From assembly GCA_029531795.1 (NCBI GenBank), contig JAPEIS010000007.1:2418001-2482000 (forward strand): 64,000 nt of DNA. The letters run 5' to 3'. The notes beneath the pieces were generated by a model. It did not search any database. It was not told the origin of the DNA and was given only the letters and a program-made list of their open reading frames with translations. Source of the stretch: Sclerotinia nivalis. Lineage: Eukaryota > Ascomycota > Leotiomycetes > Helotiales > Sclerotiniaceae. Below, piece after piece: positions 9,498-42,313 of this stretch (position 1 is the first letter of the stretch; each line of letters opens with the position of its first letter). The translations under genes and the position numbers were made by a program.

Positions 9498-10190
9498 ATT
9501 GATCGTCGTAGGCGTAATCGCCTTTTTAAAACCTCTGCTAACTATGGGCTAATGAGGATATTATCGCATTGAGAAAATGATGTAGAAAATGGAAACGATG
9601 ACTTTCTGATGGATTTCCCTTTTCTAGATACAATAATATGACGATCCTGTAACACCATTCACTGCAAGATGCGTGATGATGACTGGTGGTGTAGGCGAGG
9701 AAATTCGGAATCACTGGGGTGTTTTGGATTTCTCGTACGGTGTTTGGTTGAATTGATTTGTGGCTGATGATGCTTGTGTGCAGGAAAACAGTGGGTTATG
9801 GATCCCTTTTGGCTTTTTTTCGGCGGCAGATGGTAGATCAAGGTCGTTCATGGAGAATTCTGATGCTTGAAAATGGATTATGGGGTGGATATTGAAAAGA
9901 TGCAGCAATGCGGGTGAGGATGAGAGGATCAGGGAGTATTTGATGGGATTCTGGAGTTGTTGTGGACCTTCAAGAGATGAGGTCGAAATAAAGTTGTGTG
10001 CAATACAAATATTGTATACTCAGTACATAGCATAGATAGATATATTGTGAAGACCGAAATGAGATAATTCAAATGAATCCTTGTAATGAAAGGATACAGC
10101 AACACAAATAAAAAAACAGGAAGGATTTGAAGGATTTTTGTTTGAAATGGGTCTTTCGAAATATAAGAACGAGTTTTAGATAAAGTTATA
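9498..10190. other. Promoter-side intergenic region, no gene seen
   Basis: This is the upstream region of the large disordered-protein gene, up to the left end of the first transposon copy. Short minus-strand frames around 9659-9908 are His/Pro/Ser-rich with no domain. Confidence 0.5.
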
Positions 10191-12042
10191 ACGTGGTTTA
10201 TCAGTGTGCGGGTTATATCAGTGTGTGGGTCACTTTCATTTCAATTCACTTTTTCAAACCCATATTATTCAACAACAATTAAATCAATTGATTAAAATTA
10301 TAAAGATTCTAATAATTTAGGATTTATTATATTATTTTGACAAATCCTTGTATTATACCCAGTTTTTCTATATTTATTATAGTATCGACTAGAAAATGCT
10401 TTCCTATTAGAATTCCTCTCTTTTTGATATTCATTATATTGAATTTGAATATCAATTTTTTGTTGAGATAATATATCGATAGCCTTTTGTCCAGTAAGTA
10501 TTCTTTCTTAATATAATTGAGTTTTTTTTGTACGTCGATATTTGTTTAATATTTTATTTGCTACCCGAAGTATACGAATCTTTATATTTAAAAGTGTATT
10601 TTCATATATTAATCTTTTTGTACCCTTAGTTAAAACTAATATAGTTTCGAATATAAGTGTAGAAGAGTTTGATTGATAATGAATTATTCGAGATTTTACT
10701 AAAGTTGATTGTGAAAGAGTTTCAATTGGGTTATGAAGGGTTTGAGAAGTCTATAAATCTTGATCGAAAGAGGGGGGAGTAGGTATGCGAATTCGAATAT
10801 CTAGTTTTGAAAATACAGTTTCAGGATCAAATGGTATTAAATCTATTTCTTGAAATCCTGATTTCATATTCTGAATTGTAATTGATTCTTGGTATACAGC
10901 TTTGAAAGTTATAAAGAATTCAACTTTCGAAATATGATTGATATGTACCTTGATAAACCCATCAATTTGAGTACCATATGAATGTTTTAGGTTGCTAAAA
11001 CAGTCAATATCAAGTGATTGAGTTAAATGATTTGAATATAGTGGTAATTTTAAATAGATAATATTATTCTTTTTGCAATATGATTGAAAAGGTATTGATT
11101 TATAGTTTTCATGTTCATTTAGTATCAACATTCGATATTTGCTTTTTCTTCGATTCTTAATATGCTTATCGAAGTGTTTCAATCATTCTAAATCTGTTTT
11201 ATTGTTTGTTTATCCATTAGATGTAGGTTTAATAGTCTATTCCGTAGGAAAGTCGGTTTCGGTATACCAATTGGAAAGATGAATCTGTTCTTGAATTACT
11301 AGAAATAAGGGTATGGTTTCATCCTTTCTATTTCTATATATTATTGCTGTAGTCTATTCTCGATTGCTTGATTGTACTGATTTACTTTTACTGTATCTTT
11401 CAGTACTAATGATAACTATTGTAGTACATATAATTCTTATCATAAAGCTTGTTTCGTCGAAATTATAAAAATCGCTGTTGAGAATACCATATTTCGCTTG
11501 TATATTCGAAACCAGTCGAAACTACTTTTCAATAAGTTTAGGATCTTCGTAGAGAGTTTTTTGAAAATTATAAATACAACTAAAATGTATCTTTAATTTG
11601 ATTCGATGTTTTACGAATCGATGTGTTTAGAGCTTCCCAATACATTTTGCACTCCTCGATTCAAGAATATAATTTGTTATATTTTTTATATTTCTGAGTT
11701 TAGGTAGAAATCCTTTTATATTTATATCGAGTATATACTTAGAAATAATATTCTTTTCTAGTTTTGAAAGATTATAAGATTTAGGTCGATATTCGGAGCG
11801 AGGAGTAAAACTATTAATTCTATGTTGTAGTGTTGTATTCGAGATATTATATATCTTTACAACTTTTCGAATGTTTATTTTTTTGTCTTTTTGAATAGCT
11901 TCGATAGCGAGGAATATATGGGCTTCTTGGTTATTCGAATTCATTGTAGATTGTTGATAAAACGTGTGTTGAAAGAGAAGAGATTGAATTGAGGTGAAAG
12001 TGACCCACACATTGATATGATCCGTACACTGATAAACCACGT
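10191..12042 (-). mobile_element. Fot1/Pogo (Tc1/mariner superfamily) DNA transposon copy 1, inactive, Flipper-like
   Basis: An 1852-bp element with terminal inverted repeats starting ACGTGGTTTATCAGTGT at both ends, flanked by TA on each side as expected for a TA target duplication. The inverted repeats extend some 55-60 bp with mismatches. The transposase is on the minus strand. The length equals that of the copy at 21890-23741, but the orientation is opposite. It resembles the Fot1-like element Flipper of Botrytis in size, TIR style and coding content. That identification is from memory and should be checked. Confidence 0.9.
10508..11944 (-). pseudogene. Degenerate Fot1/Pogo-type transposase (copy 1)
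   Basis: Translation starts MNSNNQEAHIFLAIEAI and is colinear with copy 2: both stretches from ATG to the final stop are 1437 nt, so there is no net indel. Many stops interrupt it. One readable piece (start to about 11627) is the helix-turn-helix part, and another (11182-10751) is the DDE/D part. The second catalytic aspartate, in LILDEHE in copy 2, is Asn here (LILNEHE), a G-to-A change. The differences from copy 2 that I checked are mostly C-to-T/G-to-A, as repeat-induced point mutation would give. Confidence 0.85.
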
Positions 12043-35800: not shown

Positions 35801-37307
35801 TGAAAACAAAGGTTTAAAGTACATGCATATGGTAGAGTGAAGCTTTTACAACATTGGAGTGGGACTTCAGACAAAGATCACAGCGTTATGATTATTGAAG
35901 CATAGTCACCTCAAGACACTTGGAAATGATGAGAAAATGCAGATAGCTCAAGATGAGGGCGATTTATTTTGACACTTGAACCTTGAGTTGCCTCGATGCA
36001 TATACAAGCGTAACTTGCGCAGAAAATATTATTTTGGGAAACCAAATACAAGGTGGAAAGCAAACTCCAACAACTCGCGGTCAATTGGCGCAAAATATCT
36101 ATCATCGCATACACTGTAGCATGGTGATCCGTTCTCATATTCTCCCACATGACAAGTGCGTTTGTGGAATATACTAGTAAAGTATTGAATGTTTCTTCTG
36201 ATCAGATATGTGTTTCAATTGCTTTGCGAGGAATCTCTTTATCAATCTCAAATCTTACTAGGAATTTGGACTGTCAATAATTCAGAGAAATAGACAAACA
36301 TCCTTGACTCATCAACATCTTGTTTATGATACCGCTACAGTGATCCACCGCAGTATGCGGTTGAAGCACTCTTTTGCGATTTCAAAATGTTGAAAACCAT
36401 CTTTCTATACTTGATACCCCTCCCTGGCATCAATTTGTCCCAGCTGATCGTCGGGACCGACTAAAGGAGAATTATCATCAACTTCCCGCTTAGGAAGTTA
36501 GGAAGTCATTTACTCTCGGACCACTTCTTTGAAGCAACATGGGAATTAACAATCTCGGCATATCAACGGTGCTCGTACTCGTACACATACCTCAATTGTT
36601 GAGATCAGACGTATTTGTTTCCATAGAAGTACCGCCAAGACTTTCGGTACCGAAACTCTGCAAGCAAGGCAATGCGGGGCCCCCCACAATCATTCTCGCG
36701 TGGAACTTCCAAATGCCCCCCTTATGCTTATATTATACTTTAGATTCGTAATGTATTACGATGATACGACTTTGATGTCCTTTAGGTGTATTATCCGCTC
36801 TGCGCCGTACGATTAACTTCTAGGTTAAGTGTCTCGGCAAATCTGAACTTTCCGATTGTTGTCGTTTCGGACCCGCCGTTTCGATGTGCACTGATGTTGT
36901 TTTTTTATCTCTGTATCTGGATAACTAGATATCTTGTATGCATGCAGCAGCATATAGCAGGGGCGTACGTACCACCTCTACTGTGATATTTTTGTCCAAA
37001 AGCAGGGGATTAGCTAAGGCTTTCAAGAACTCACTCCTTCAATGCCCTCGAATAACCCAGTGATTTTCTTTGTTTGACCGCAGTATATCCACAGTACCCC
37101 AGTCAGTACGCTTGTTCCCGCACATAGTCTGCACGGCACTTACAGAATGCCACAAGCGCCAGGAGAGTCAAACTGCCGAACAGGTTAAAGCTTCAAGTAT
37201 AAGAAGTTCTAATCGTTCCTACTTTTCTCATCTGTTCATCCAGTCATCCATTAGCTCATCTCTTGTAAATACCACATTTCGAACTTCCATTGCACCCAAT
37301 AATCATT
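32818..37307. other. Long gene-poor stretch (4.5 kb)
   Basis: AT-rich, with no gene I can support. A possible decayed coding remnant lies on the minus strand at about 33096-33545, where frames containing QDAGKEWKDRIQLYENHVVG and VVLAASFHALPSQ adjoin. I cannot name its family. 33855-33880 has an A-run/G-run. Open frames at 34406-35021 and 36539-36751 show no domain. Confidence 0.4.
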
Positions 37308-37994
37308 ATGAAGATCTCGCAGACCACCCTCCTCGCCTCAGGTTTGGCCTCAATTGCCTTAGCTCAGGATACAACTTGTAGCACTTCAAGCCTCAACACT
37401 ACAGCCTCCACTTGGACTGTCGCAGAAACCGATACCATCTTCAGCATCGCTGCCGCCACCAACCGTGGTGTTTGTGATATTGCACGTGCCAGCAGAATGC
37501 CCGATGCTGAATACATCGATACCGGTATGGTACTTATCATTCCCGCTCAAGTCTGCAATCCCGACAACGAATCCTGTCTCCTCACTGCCTCAAACGATGC
37601 CACCTCATGTGTATACGGAGGACCTCACACATACACCACTGTGCGCAATGATACCATCACCAAGATCGCAACGAAATTCAACGTTGATGTTTCGGTGCTC
37701 TCAACCGATACTATTACTGGCATGCTCAAGGTTTCATCGGTCGATGAGATTATTACCGCTGGAACTCTGATGAAGGTACCCCAATGCAGTCCTTCTGAGT
37801 GTACTATTCAACCAATTCAGTTCACATATGGTGTGTACAAGGATTTGGCTGAGAAGTATAATGCTACTGTTGGACAGCTGCTTGGATTCAACACTGGATA
37901 TCGGTACAGTGATTCTGTTGAATCTCTTTCGCCTGTTCTTACGATTCCTATGAATTGCAAACCGCTTTCCGAAAATATCACTGTTATCTCATAA
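37308..37994 (+). CDS. Secreted LysM-domain protein (228 aa)
   Basis: A single exon. The start is taken at MKISQTTLL (37308) because it gives a typical signal peptide (MKISQTTLLASGLASIALAQ, cleaved after AQ). The in-frame Met at 37290 would only add MHPIII. LysM module 1: STWTVAETDTIFSIAAATNRGVCDIARAS...GMVLIIP. A second, HTYTTVRNDTITKIATKFNVDVSVL...GTLMKVPQC, follows. A third, weaker C-terminal unit (YGVYKDLAEKYNATVGQLLGFN...LTIPMNC) is also visible. Cysteines and several NxT/S sites fit secretion. LysM proteins bind chitin or related GlcNAc polymers. In plant-pathogenic fungi some act as effectors that hide chitin, but whether this one does cannot be told from sequence. Confidence 0.88.
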   Translation: MKISQTTLLASGLASIALAQDTTCSTSSLNTTASTWTVAETDTIFSIAAATNRGVCDIARASRMPDAEYIDTGMVLIIPAQVCNPDNESCLLTASNDATSCVYGGPHTYTTVRNDTITKIATKFNVDVSVLSTDTITGMLKVSSVDEIITAGTLMKVPQCSPSECTIQPIQFTYGVYKDLAEKYNATVGQLLGFNTGYRYSDSVESLSPVLTIPMNCKPLSENITVIS

Positions 37995-39388
37995 AATGCT
38001 TATGAGTGGAGGGGTTTTGAGTGGGTTGAAGTATATGGATGTAGGAGGATGTATGGTGAAAAGTGTATTTAGCTAGTAGGATGATGGTTTTCTTGGGAGA
38101 TAACGTGGCTTTGCTATTACCATTTTATCATATCCTGATGCAATGTTAGCGATAATTTTTGGGGTTTTGATGAATATACTGTACCATTCTGTACTGAGTA
38201 GAAACATGATATAGATTTTGTAAAGGAAATTTGCTTTTGTCTTTGGTGTTATACAGTTAAAAAAGTTCACATGCACCCACCTCTCACCAAGGAAACATCC
38301 CTTCGTTAGGCCATGAAAATAAAATCGTGATCGGGAAACTCTCTCTCTCTCCCAACGTATTCGATTCCATCAAATGACTCAATCTTAGTTCTGTAGGCTT
38401 TCAAGTCAGGCCTGAAGGTTCGTAGAGGGCACCGCGCACCGCGCACAGGGTTAAGTCTTCGTCCTTCTTCTAATAGGCAGAGTATAGATATTCAATCAAA
38501 TTGGTCATATAATCGTAGTCAAAAGTTCCCAAGCGCAAAATTCCTGTCCTATGCAATCTAGCGATGGACGAAATAAATTGTACACCAGAATATAATTCTA
38601 AGCAACTTATTAAACCCTCAAAATGACCTATTTGGTCGAGAATTCCCAACATCTTTTATCAGCTTTATTCTCAAACTGTGTATCCTTTGGAAATTATCTT
38701 TCCTTTACATATTATGATGGCTACCCCTAGTATATGTTCTGTATCCGTTTGATTTGGTTGAAAAATATCTTCTTGTACAATCATCTAGTTGGAATAGATT
38801 GGTATTAGTAGTATTGTGATGAAAGAATTTGAGAAAGCAATATACAGACCTTCGATAATAATAGCAAAAAGGCACTAGAGAAATGGAAAGTACGAATAAG
38901 TTGAATGATAGGTGACAAGAACACCGTAAGAATGGTTAGTGTTGTGTTAAATAATGAAATCTAAGTTTCCTTTGAGGCTGATAGCACGTGATCTTAATTC
39001 ACCTTAGAAAGGTTCATCTGCCTTGACCAATTGAACGATCAAATTTAATTAGGTTATCGCTTTATTATATTTAGAGCTTAATAGTTTATATTCAATTCGA
39101 AAGTGCTCTAATGATGGAATTCTGCTGGTATGTTCGCCTAATTAGGCTTAGACGTTCAGTTGGCCCGTGGATTCTTCTACTCACCTCTCCCGAAGAAAAC
39201 ATCCCGAAATCAATCTGAATAGTGGCCCTCCTTCCTATTTGATCCCACGAGCAAACACTCACACACACTCACACTCATCTTCCCTGGCTTGCGCTGTGAC
39301 TAATTGTTTCCACAATCCCATTCGCATCGATGCCTTGAACATCGATTTGAATTTGAGCCTCATGGTCATCAAACAACAAGCACAAATA
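37995..39388. other. AT-rich intergenic region, no gene seen
   Basis: Short open frames only. It includes a (CT)n-type stretch near 38340. It leads into the tRNA gene. Confidence 0.5.
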
Positions 39389-39513
39389 AGCAAGTTGGCG
39401 CAGTGGAAGCGCGCCGGGCTCATAACCCGGAGGTCCCCAGATCGGTAAGCACAATCATACTTTGAGATATTAGAATTCATACTAACAACAATTTCAGAAA
39501 CTGGGACTTGCTA
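39389..39513 (+). tRNA. Initiator tRNA-Met (CAT) with a 53-nt spliceosomal-type intron in the T-loop
   Basis: Exon parts 39389-39444 and 39498-39513 join to a 72-nt cloverleaf. The acceptor is AGCAAGT/ACTTGCT (7 bp), the D-stem GCGC/GCGC and the anticodon stem CCGGG/CCCGG with loop CTCATAA (anticodon CAT). The T-stem is CCCAG/CTGGG with loop ATCG+AAA, and the discriminator is A. The A1:U72 pair and the AUCGAAA loop in place of TPsiC are eukaryotic initiator signatures. Position 37/38 has no intron, so this is not a normal tRNA intron. T4 and T6 runs follow at 39525-39535, a plausible Pol III terminator. The inserted segment splits the B box. Whether the gene is expressed cannot be told from sequence. 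Confidence 0.85.
39445..39497 (+). other. Spliceosomal-type (GT-AG) intron-like insert within the initiator tRNA gene
   Basis: 53 nt with donor GTAAGC, branch site TACTAAC (39480-39486), acceptor TTTCAG and size all like the mRNA introns in this window. It sits between T-loop bases ATCG and AAA. Excision leaves a loop of exactly seven bases. Confidence 0.8.
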
Positions 39514-40697
39514 ATACGCAAACATTTTGTTTTTTGCCTTTTCGAGGTATTTCAGTGTTCTTCTTTTGGCTAGAGGTTGGAGAGGATGTTTGCTACCGGA
39601 CTGACTTATTTGCTGAAGATTCTTTTTTTTTTGATATCAAGAAGTGGACACTACCGATAAGGAAACATGCCTCGGATAACCTTCTCGGGAAATGAGCCGG
39701 ATCGGGATACACATAATCCCGCCGATGCCCCACCCTCAAACCCTTCTCTACTTTACATCGACATCAATAAATGAAAGAATAGTAGCCTCTAATATCACGA
39801 GAGTCCAGATATCGGAGTTCCTGTAGATATCATTTATCAAAAGAGTTACAGAGGTCTACGAGTTAGGACTTACCATATTAGTGTGGTTGAAATGGGATGA
39901 AACAGACTCACCAAGTAAGAACATGAGTCTCGTTCAAGGCATGTCAAGTCGAATTGTTTGGTGGAGAGCATTTTGCCCTTAAAACCGAAATTCTTCGCCA
40001 TTTGCTTGAGCACATCACACCTGTGCCGCGGGCTGAGTAGCCGTGGCTAGCATTTCTATTTTCATCCACCTCCTTATCCTCCCGCCCTAATTACAATTGT
40101 AATCTACAAAAACACCAATTTTTATCACTACAACTTTGTCTATTTTGCGATTCCTTTCACTGCCGACATCTACCTAATATTACAGTCCATTCTACTCAGT
40201 TTATGGTTTATTTTACATCACATCCAAACATGTACTGTACTACCAAAAATCAAATCTCCGCTTTACTATCTTTTCCGCATCAGACCATACTCCAACTATC
40301 CAGGGAAAATAACAAAAAACAAAAAACAAAAAACAAACCCGAGGTCAACTAAAATCCGGACAAAAGCAAACCCTGAGCAAAAACGAACTCCGCAACCAAA
40401 ATCCTGCATGGGCTCCAATCTGATATCATCGATACCTATTTCCAAACAGCACCTTGACTTGGAATCACTGTGTCTCACTTCCCACTCGCCAAAAGGATTT
40501 CTAACATGGAAAGCAGCAATCCATCTGGTTGTCCGTCGGTAATTCTTCAGGGAGCAGAATATCACCACACACCGGTCCGTCCCGAGGATTCCAGCCCTCA
40601 CTAGGACATTGTGCTCCGCCGTTCGCTTTTTTACTTGTCCAGCTCAGACTTCCATATATGAATTGGATGTAGTCGTTCTCATGCTCCCCAGTGATAG
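39514..40697. other. Intergenic region, no gene seen
   Basis: Nothing coding was recognised. 40310-40340 holds an AACAAAAA repeat. The end of this segment is the 3' flank of the esterase gene. Confidence 0.5.
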
Positions 40698-42313
40698 CTA
40701 GTGGACTGGGCAGAGGGCCTTGTATGGTGTACCATTGCCATCATTTATTGGCTCGCCCAAGCCCTCATTATCGAAATATGACGCCGGCGTCTGGTAGATA
40801 ACTTTCTTGCTGTTGTCAAGTAGGGTTATGTTTGCATACAAGTCCTCGGTTTCCGGGTTACAGTTTTCCCACTCGATGAGATGGAAGCAACATGTGCCAG
40901 TAGCATAAGTTGGAGGTGGTGGTGAAGGTGTGGGAGGTGGGGGTGGTGGTGGCGTGCTGGTTGGCGCAGCTGACGACGTGGTCGCTGTGTTGCTATCTGC
41001 GCTAGTGTTCGAAATATACTGCTGTATGATCTCTTTGTATATCGCCTCATGGTAAACCATCTGTGGATGAAATACCCTCGCACGGTAGCCAATAAAATCC
41101 GGCCAGATGTTAGCCTGGGCTGTAGCATTTCCACCGAATGTTTGATTCAGCTGACTCTCGTCGACCTTGGACCAGAAATCATTGAGATAGTCTGTCCAAA
41201 GCGTGGTATTTTGATCCCAGTTGATGGTATCAATGTTAGCCTGCTGCACGCTATTCAAATACATAATGGTGGGGTCCGTTGACATCTCGCTCGGTTCATT
41301 AGAGTCGTAAGATAGTGCCAAAACCACAGATTTGGGTTTTTTAGGTCCGGCTCCTGGACGCCTGGCTCGCAAAAGCGATGACCTGTTCCCAGCAAGACAT
41401 CAATGTCAATAAACTTAACATTACTTCCGCTGTTCTGACTTACAGCCTGCTGAATCGCAGCATTCAACGTCACAGTCATCAAGTTGAAGTCTTGACGCAA
41501 ATCTGTAGTCATCATTGGATGTTCCTTGCCATCAGGGTTCGGATTGGCCGTCCTTGCAAAAGTTACAGTGTCACAACCGGGGTCTTGATCGTTGAAGAAT
41601 TTACCATAACCAGTCACATAAAGCCGGAAGGTGTTTCCGGTGGCTGCCTGGCCGTACTCAACAATTTTCTTGATCACTGACTCGATCTTGGATACAAGAT
41701 CACTGTTTAAAGTATTTTTGTCACCGTCTTTACATATTAAAGACCATGAAAGCTCCCTCTGCGCATCGCAAGAACGTGAAACAAAACCCGCACTTATAGG
41801 GAGCCTTAGCAGAGTATTAGTATCTTGAGGAATATAAAAGTCTATCCATTCAACTCACGGAAACCCGTCAATGATGCAATTGTTCAAGATACCTGGAAAG
41901 TCTATGCCATCTCCACTAATACTGAGTGTACCCATTGTGGGTGTACCACTGCTTGGTCTTGGATAATATTGCCAATTAGGTTGACCCCAGGTTTGATCAG
42001 TGGTAAAGAACTGGAATTCCTCCACATCTTCGGCTTTAGCACCAGAACACACGACATTGTTCAGCTTGCCCCCTGATCCAGGTATAAGTTTGTCTGGATC
42101 GTCTTGGATCCACCACGGATATGCTTCCTTATAGCGTAGGCATCGACGTCCATTGATGTACTCTCCCGTTCCCACACCAGAAGCATATGAGTCACCCCAT
42201 GCAGTCCATTCGAAAGAAGGTGTCCTATCCTGGAGGCTAACCGTCTCCTCAGCGTCTAATGTAGGGTAGGTAAGGATAGGCGCTGCAAAGAAGAATAGGA
42301 CAAATAGTATCAT
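40698..42313 (-). pseudogene. Secreted SGNH/GDSL-type esterase with a proline-rich linker, broken by a one-base frameshift
   Basis: Exon 1 (42313-41859) has a signal peptide (MILFVLFFFAAPILTYP), then the block-I motif WGDSYASGVGTG with the catalytic Ser. A GTGAGT donor and TATAAG acceptor join exon 2 at 41792. The protein continues through YVTGYGKFFNDQDPGCD and GHRFCEPGVQEPD to LWFWHY. There the frame shifts by one (about 41313) into YDSNEPSEMSTDPT. The shifted frame carries the likely catalytic His block (ARVFHPQMVYHEAI), a Thr/Pro linker (STPPPPPPPTPSPPPP) and a C-terminal domain of about 75 residues. Loss of one C in a CCT codon would explain the break. The substrate is unknown. SGNH enzymes with this layout are hydrolases of esters or polysaccharide side groups. 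Confidence 0.8.

Follow-up and report, generated by a model that had tools for sequence, protein, structure and literature searches.

A gene for the initiator tRNA-Met of Sclerotinia nivalis is interrupted in its T-loop by a short segment with the signals of an mRNA-type intron, and it is very probably one of three paralogous, working genes of this kind, from which a U2-type intron would be removed by the spliceosome, with RNA polymerase III (Pol III) as the probable polymerase. Spliceosomal removal of the introns is what we infer from the sequence. According to the taught view, the tRNA endonuclease takes care of introns in nuclear tRNAs, and the introns removed by the spliceosome belong to Pol II transcripts. 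The window, that is, the whole stretch of DNA analyzed, comprises 64,000 nt (positions 2418001-2482000 of contig C7), and the genome searched comprises 50.3 Mb in 31 contigs.

The gene in the window (hereafter C7) and all of its parts lie on the plus strand. The initial annotation had described a 53-nt insert at 39445-39497, running from GTAAGC through TACTAAC to TTTCAG, the removal of which restores a complete initiator tRNA. Re-reading of the sequence showed that these coordinates are exact, and ARAGORN recognized the form lacking 39445-39497 as a 72-nt tRNA-Met(CAT) with all stems paired. The 5′ exon (39389..39444) corresponds to nt 1-56 of the initiator tRNA-Met, including the 5′ strand of the acceptor stem, the D arm, the CAU anticodon arm, the 5′ strand of the T-stem and the AUCG of the T-loop, and is identical at 56/56 positions to each of the three other genomic copies described below. 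An intact A box, TGGCGCAGTGG, was read from the sequence without scoring at 39396..39406, by reference to the A-box consensus, and by eye it is common to the 5′ exons of 4/4 initiator genes. The last five nucleotides of the exon, GATCG (39440..39444), make up the upstream half of the B box and are separated from AAAC by the predicted U2-type (GT-AG) spliceosomal intron of 53 nt (39445..39497). The intron separates positions 57 and 58 of the tRNA within the T-loop; it is predicted from splice signals that also occur in the copies on contigs C16 and C10, and its branch-point sequence, TACTAAC, is read at 39480..39486, with 39485 presumably being the branch A. The 3′ exon (39498..39513) supplies the AAA of the T-loop, the 3′ strands of the T-stem and acceptor stem, and A73, and is identical at 16/16 positions in the four genes. 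The gene is preceded by a CAA-rich leader (39349..39388; 4 CAA in 40 nt) like those of other tRNA genes of the genome, and is followed by TTTTGTTTTTT (39525..39535), a probable Pol III terminator consisting of T4 at 39525-39528 and T6 at 39530-39535. The sequence and the ARAGORN cloverleaf of the spliced C7 tRNA display A1:U72, a GGG:CCC anticodon stem, A54 and A60, and the AUCGAAA T-loop. These are hallmarks of a eukaryotic initiator tRNA. ARAGORN, which was run with introns allowed in the anticodon loop only, called a tRNA neither in the window nor in the 125 nt of the unspliced gene (39389-39513), and a search with Rfam at gathering cut-offs gave zero matches in the 64-kb window.

The C7 gene is flanked by a reading frame with a LysM domain (37290-37994) and by reading frames on the minus strand (40698-42313), two of which were tested with Pfam and gave no match. 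The idea that the segment could be the ordinary intron of an mRNA, which was raised in the initial annotation as a finding that would overturn its reading, receives no encouragement from the listed reading frames. The sole listed frame over the gene (39167-39448, 93 aa) overlaps the 5′ exon and has no Pfam match above the cut-off (best E 0.14). Elsewhere in the window, positions 10001-12000 are A+T-rich (27.5% G+C versus 34-47% in the other 2-kb steps), possibly representing a decayed repeat. A 919-aa TBC-domain reading frame at the start of the window is 94% identical to a protein of Ciborinia camelliae (Sclerotiniaceae); among the matches listed (120 of 2619), it is 93% identical to four Botrytis/Botryotinia species and 90% to two Monilinia species, and the identity to Botrytis cinerea is 89% over 96% of the length. 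Two further matches are closer still, at 100% and 98%. Judged from this single protein, the host most likely belongs to Sclerotiniaceae.

A search of the whole genome with the spliced 72-mer revealed four matches, of which one, on contig C12, is full length and three (C16, C10 and C7) are broken directly past nt 56. Thus, a single initiator gene among the four detectable is intact, and the insert recurs at the same site in C10 and C16, so that 3/4 genes, located on three separate contigs, are interrupted. The inserts, 53 nt in C7, 58 nt in C10 and 53 nt in C16, all lie at 57^58 and are all followed by the identical 16-nt 3′ exon. When the whole genome was searched with the 16-nt 3′ exon, allowing 1 mismatch, and with 20 nt of the 5′ exon, allowing 2, both patterns returned exactly the four initiator loci with 0 mismatches, while the reversed-pattern controls returned 1 and 0 matches, respectively. 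Degraded copies were not found genome-wide, either at these mismatch limits or by BLAST at E ≤ 10. The exons are identical at 72/72 nt across all four genes, including 12 base pairs that form between one exon and the other. By contrast with the exons, the flanks of the four loci (approximately 2 kb on each side) gave no same-strand BLAST match at E ≤ 1. Segmental duplication was rejected as the source of the copies, as these flanks are without similarity on the same strand. ARAGORN detects 1/4 of the initiator genes in the genome. On C16, a tRNA-Gly(TCC) gene (L002, 1134-1205) is situated approximately 300 bp upstream of the interrupted initiator gene. The initial annotation had named an assembly error at 39445-39497 as a possible refutation. 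Because distinct inserts occupy one break site on three contigs, such an error is very unlikely, and the chance that an assembly or sequencing artefact lies behind the T-loop inserts is practically negligible.

In donor, branch, acceptor and length, the inserts look like U2-type spliceosomal introns. The donor is GTAAGC in 3/3 introns, and GTAAGCA is common to all three. A branch sequence (CTAAC, CTAAT and CTAAC) is present near the 3′ end in 3/3 introns, with 10-12 nt from the C/T of CTAAY onward to the intron end, and the acceptors are YAG in 3/3 cases (CAG in C7, TAG in the other two). Strings in the window that fit this intron consensus by sequence alone number 9 (C7 intron included), versus 1.25 (SD 0.83) in 20 first-order Markov simulations. 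The lengths of the three introns (53, 53 and 58 nt) compare with a median of 54 nt for these 9 strings, the C7 intron being among them. Group I and group II introns are longer than 53-58 nt, and the inserts were rejected as members of either class on this account. A bacterial initiator tRNA gene reportedly contains a self-splicing intron, which resembles the present case in that an initiator tRNA gene is interrupted; however, the inserts described here, at 53-58 nt, are far too short for a group I intron.

The sequences of the three introns have diverged almost to chance in their interiors, and a shared origin is faintly indicated. From donor to branch, 11.4%, 6.2% and 3.4% of shuffles aligned at least as well as the respective intron pairs, and when whole introns were aligned with free gaps, signals included, 37/60, 37/64 and 40/61 columns were identical. 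A search for further copies of the 53-nt segment, which the initial annotation had proposed, yielded none genome-wide at E ≤ 10 outside the initiator genes; since no further genomic copies exist at this level, nothing points to an introner-like family that is spreading. The common site, the shared GTAAGCA and the weak alignment scores favor one intron gain followed by copying with the gene as the probable history, and separate gains at one site in three copies are a possible alternative.

Introns of eukaryotic nuclear tRNAs sit at position 37/38 and are cut out by the tRNA-splicing endonuclease. The genes described here resemble those genes in that a nuclear tRNA gene carries an intervening sequence, but differ from them in the position (57/58 versus 37/38) and in the GT-AG and branch signals. 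That the inserts are archaeal-style introns at an odd position, processed by the tRNA-splicing endonuclease, is very improbable. In each of the three copies, the junction allows a central helix of 4 bp, one of them a GU pair, of the kind that a bulge-helix-bulge requires; however, the pairing is mostly exonic (6/8 bases), with four bases in the T-loop and the 3′ side of the T-stem, and the endonuclease pathway gives no reason for the conservation of GTAAGC, CTAAY and YAG, in addition to the 37/38 rule for eukaryotes. In favor of the endonuclease, archaeal tRNAs have introns at noncanonical positions, and such introns are discussed for archaea in the tRNAscan-SE 2.0 paper (PMC8450103). Two other tRNA-like genes of this genome, L058 (C8:783078-783218) and L059 (C14:1202473-1202627), were reported by ARAGORN with inserts of 70 and 82 nt near the anticodon.

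Regarding the function of the three interrupted genes, two opposing readings have to be weighed. In one, which we regard as improbable, they are silent relics, and C12 alone makes the initiator tRNA. The B box is split in all three genes, with no substitute found, and C12 is intact and has its own T-run; this intact gene could bear the entire initiator-tRNA load, which counts against the reading preferred here. On the other hand, the exons are identical at all 72 positions despite the diverged intron interiors and flanks, the splice signals are conserved, the T-runs and leaders are kept, and no partly decayed copies occur within the limits of the search. The identity of the exons argues for selection because unselected copies should have drifted as the introns did. 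Gene conversion alone is disfavored as an explanation, as it would need to correct a 16-nt exon while sparing the adjacent intron of 53-58 nt, and under the relic reading, conversion from C12 must have done so three times over. Taken together, there are strong signs of selection on the tRNA as well as on the splice signals. The initial annotation had also entertained an intron dropped into a gene copy that is now silent or exonised in an mRNA. This suggestion is disfavored by the same site being used in three dispersed copies with identical exons and with intron interiors diverged almost to chance. Folding of the three precursors gave no common pattern, which counts against spliceosomal maturation of working genes: two copies keep 21/21 tRNA pairs, versus means of 17.4 and 14.3 with shuffled introns, and the C16 precursor keeps 10/21 versus a shuffled-intron mean of 16.4, that is, worse than the shuffles.

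The surroundings of the genes point to Pol III, as judged from T-runs and CAA-rich leaders. The first T-run (T4-T7) starts 11-14 nt past the last tRNA base in the three interrupted genes; in C7, this first run is T4, followed by T6 at offset 16, and in C12, the first run is T4 at offset 21, so that a run of T4 or longer starts 11-21 nt downstream in 4/4 initiator genes. Runs of T5-7 occur within 29 nt of all three interrupted genes against a T5 background in the window of 0.039 per 29-nt stretch. In other nuclear tRNA genes, the first T4 occurs within 25 nt in 23/34. CAA occurs 3-5 times in the 40-nt leaders of the four initiator genes and 2.6 times on average in those of the 34 other nuclear tRNA genes, compared with a background of 0.84, and 5.6% of background 40-nt stretches have at least 3 CAA. 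The 34 genes are distinct genes called by ARAGORN, neighbors included. They derive from the 63 Rfam tRNA matches listed (63 of 2986 candidates were scored, and the C12 gene was missed), of which 46 were fetched (30 loci and 16 by place) and 17 on C24, C25 and C31 were left out. Six loci on C31, taken as mitochondrial by its tRNA set, and nine loci together with L068 on C24, a tandem array, were dropped before counting. Five identical, dispersed tRNA-Gln(TTG) genes on C5, C13 and C15 (L019-L023) have no T4 within 60 nt downstream, and all five have CCATAC in the first 35 nt downstream.

The mode of transcription is the weakest link and the main difficulty of the Pol III reading. The initial annotation had stated that the insert splits the B box, and this was borne out: the cut falls past GATCG, and the matrix score of 9.6 bits in C12 drops to -6.7 bits where the intron splits each of the interrupted genes, compared with scores of at least 9.4 bits in 27 other genes of the matrix set. 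A scan of each gene and the following 250 nt for a substitute B box was negative, with best scores of 1.2 (C7), 4.5 (C16) and 3.6 bits (C10); in length-matched random stretches, the median of the best score was 4.4-4.5 and the 95th percentile 9.1-9.2 bits. The fission-yeast U6 intron reportedly carries a B-box match, in contrast to the three introns described here, in which none stands above chance. The best string in C16, GGTTCATCTCA, is located in the intron, and by analogy with fission-yeast U6 it is possible that C16 possesses a diverged intronic B box. As the B box is broken by the intron, transcription must use the A box, the half B box, upstream sequence, or boxes that have diverged beyond recognition. 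The broken B box, together with the fact that the usual substrates of the spliceosome are Pol II transcripts, speaks for working genes whose transcripts, perhaps longer non-coding RNAs, are made by Pol II and then processed by the spliceosome. This alternative appears unlikely, although less so than silent relics, given the T5-7 directly behind each gene and the tRNA-type leaders, and given that the copies share no upstream region. Maturation of this tRNA by the spliceosome, which the initial annotation had offered as one of its two readings, is now the favored one; the Pol II transcription that it had coupled to splicing as one option is possible yet unneeded, since the T-runs past the 3′ ends and the CAA-rich leaders resemble Pol III units.

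Other RNA genes were surveyed for comparable interruptions. Patterns combining an elongator T-loop with GTAAG, GGTTCGGTAAG and GGTTCGAGTAAG, occurred at 12 and 4 places, versus 33 and 8 for the reversed controls. No tRNA 5′ half was seen by eye at these 16 places (two junctions, one donor only), and a search of the same 16 loci with model R1 gave no full-length match and two weak intron-only matches, L080 and L081 (10.4 bits, E approximately 0.9). The T-loop intron trait may be special to the initiator, judging from this narrow two-pattern test. In searches that scored a part of their candidates and detect interrupted genes poorly, U6 gave one match above the cut-off, which is uninterrupted, 5S gave 37 of 39 listed matches above the cut-off at 119-120 nt, without sign of an interruption, and U3 gave two above the cut-off (273 and 254 nt) without a large insert; the 5.8S search gave one match, below the cut-off. 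A fungal-type initiator pattern had 0 matches in viral contigs and 0 in prokaryotic genome contigs, and a looser pattern had 2 and 3 matches in the same collections, which by eye are bacterial/phage-type tRNA-Met without an insert. In this genome, a gene resembling tRNA-Ala(TGC) recurs every 4.48 kb or so on C24 (57.7 kb) and on C25, in at least 13 and at least 9 copies. The arrangement is that of a multimer or tandem array, and, at a guess, it could stem from a mitochondrial plasmid.

Spliceosomal introns are found in several non-coding RNA genes of fungi. Those of fungal U3 snoRNA are comparable to the present introns in residing in a structured non-coding RNA, but the host is not a tRNA. 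Spliceosomal introns in ascomycete nuclear rDNA are said to have been described by Bhattacharya in 2000, and rRNA is transcribed by Pol I. These rDNA introns likewise reside in non-coding RNA genes of the same phylum; however, the host is rRNA, which is neither a tRNA nor the product of an internal-promoter gene. Their presence in ascomycete 18S and nuclear rDNA genes is documented (PMC11889510). The closest likeness is offered by the U6 snRNA introns of fission yeast and other fungi, where removal of a spliceosomal intron makes the working form of a small structured Pol III RNA (PMC10484740, PMC5832005); U6 of fission yeast exemplifies an mRNA-type intron in a product of Pol III (PMC10484740). 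The U6 intron lies near catalytic residues and is thought, in the same source, to derive from reverse splicing (PMC10484740). The present case differs in that the host RNA is a tRNA, for which the reverse-splicing route has no obvious counterpart. A spliceosomal intron in a nuclear tRNA was not found in the open-access literature, in line with the initial annotation, which knew of no fungal tRNA with an mRNA-type intron.

In the proposed pathway, a short precursor would be made, most likely by Pol III, and would end at the T-run. The spliceosome would then recognize GTAAGC, CTAAY and YAG and join the 56-nt and 16-nt exons. The T-arm and the elbow would form normally only after splicing, thereby permitting trimming of the ends, addition of CCA and modification. 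A single gain of the intron, followed by duplication of the gene that carried it, is the probable origin.

If this reading is true, the spliceosome would provide an additional route of nuclear tRNA intron removal besides the tRNA endonuclease, and the presence of U2-type introns in three conserved initiator-tRNA genes would violate both the endonuclease-only rule for tRNA introns and the Pol II-only rule for spliceosomal introns. The finding raises the questions of what guides Pol III to a tRNA gene that lacks a B box, how splicing copes with a precursor of approximately 130 nt whose last exon measures 16 nt, and by which route introns entered tRNA genes. The detection of one initiator gene in four by ARAGORN suggests that tRNA finders may undercount interrupted genes. 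For the fungus itself, the balance tilts slightly toward a situation in which most initiator-tRNA genes would be transcribed by Pol III without an intact B box and would yield their product only after splicing, so that the greater part of the initiator-tRNA supply, and with it translation, would hinge on splicing capacity.
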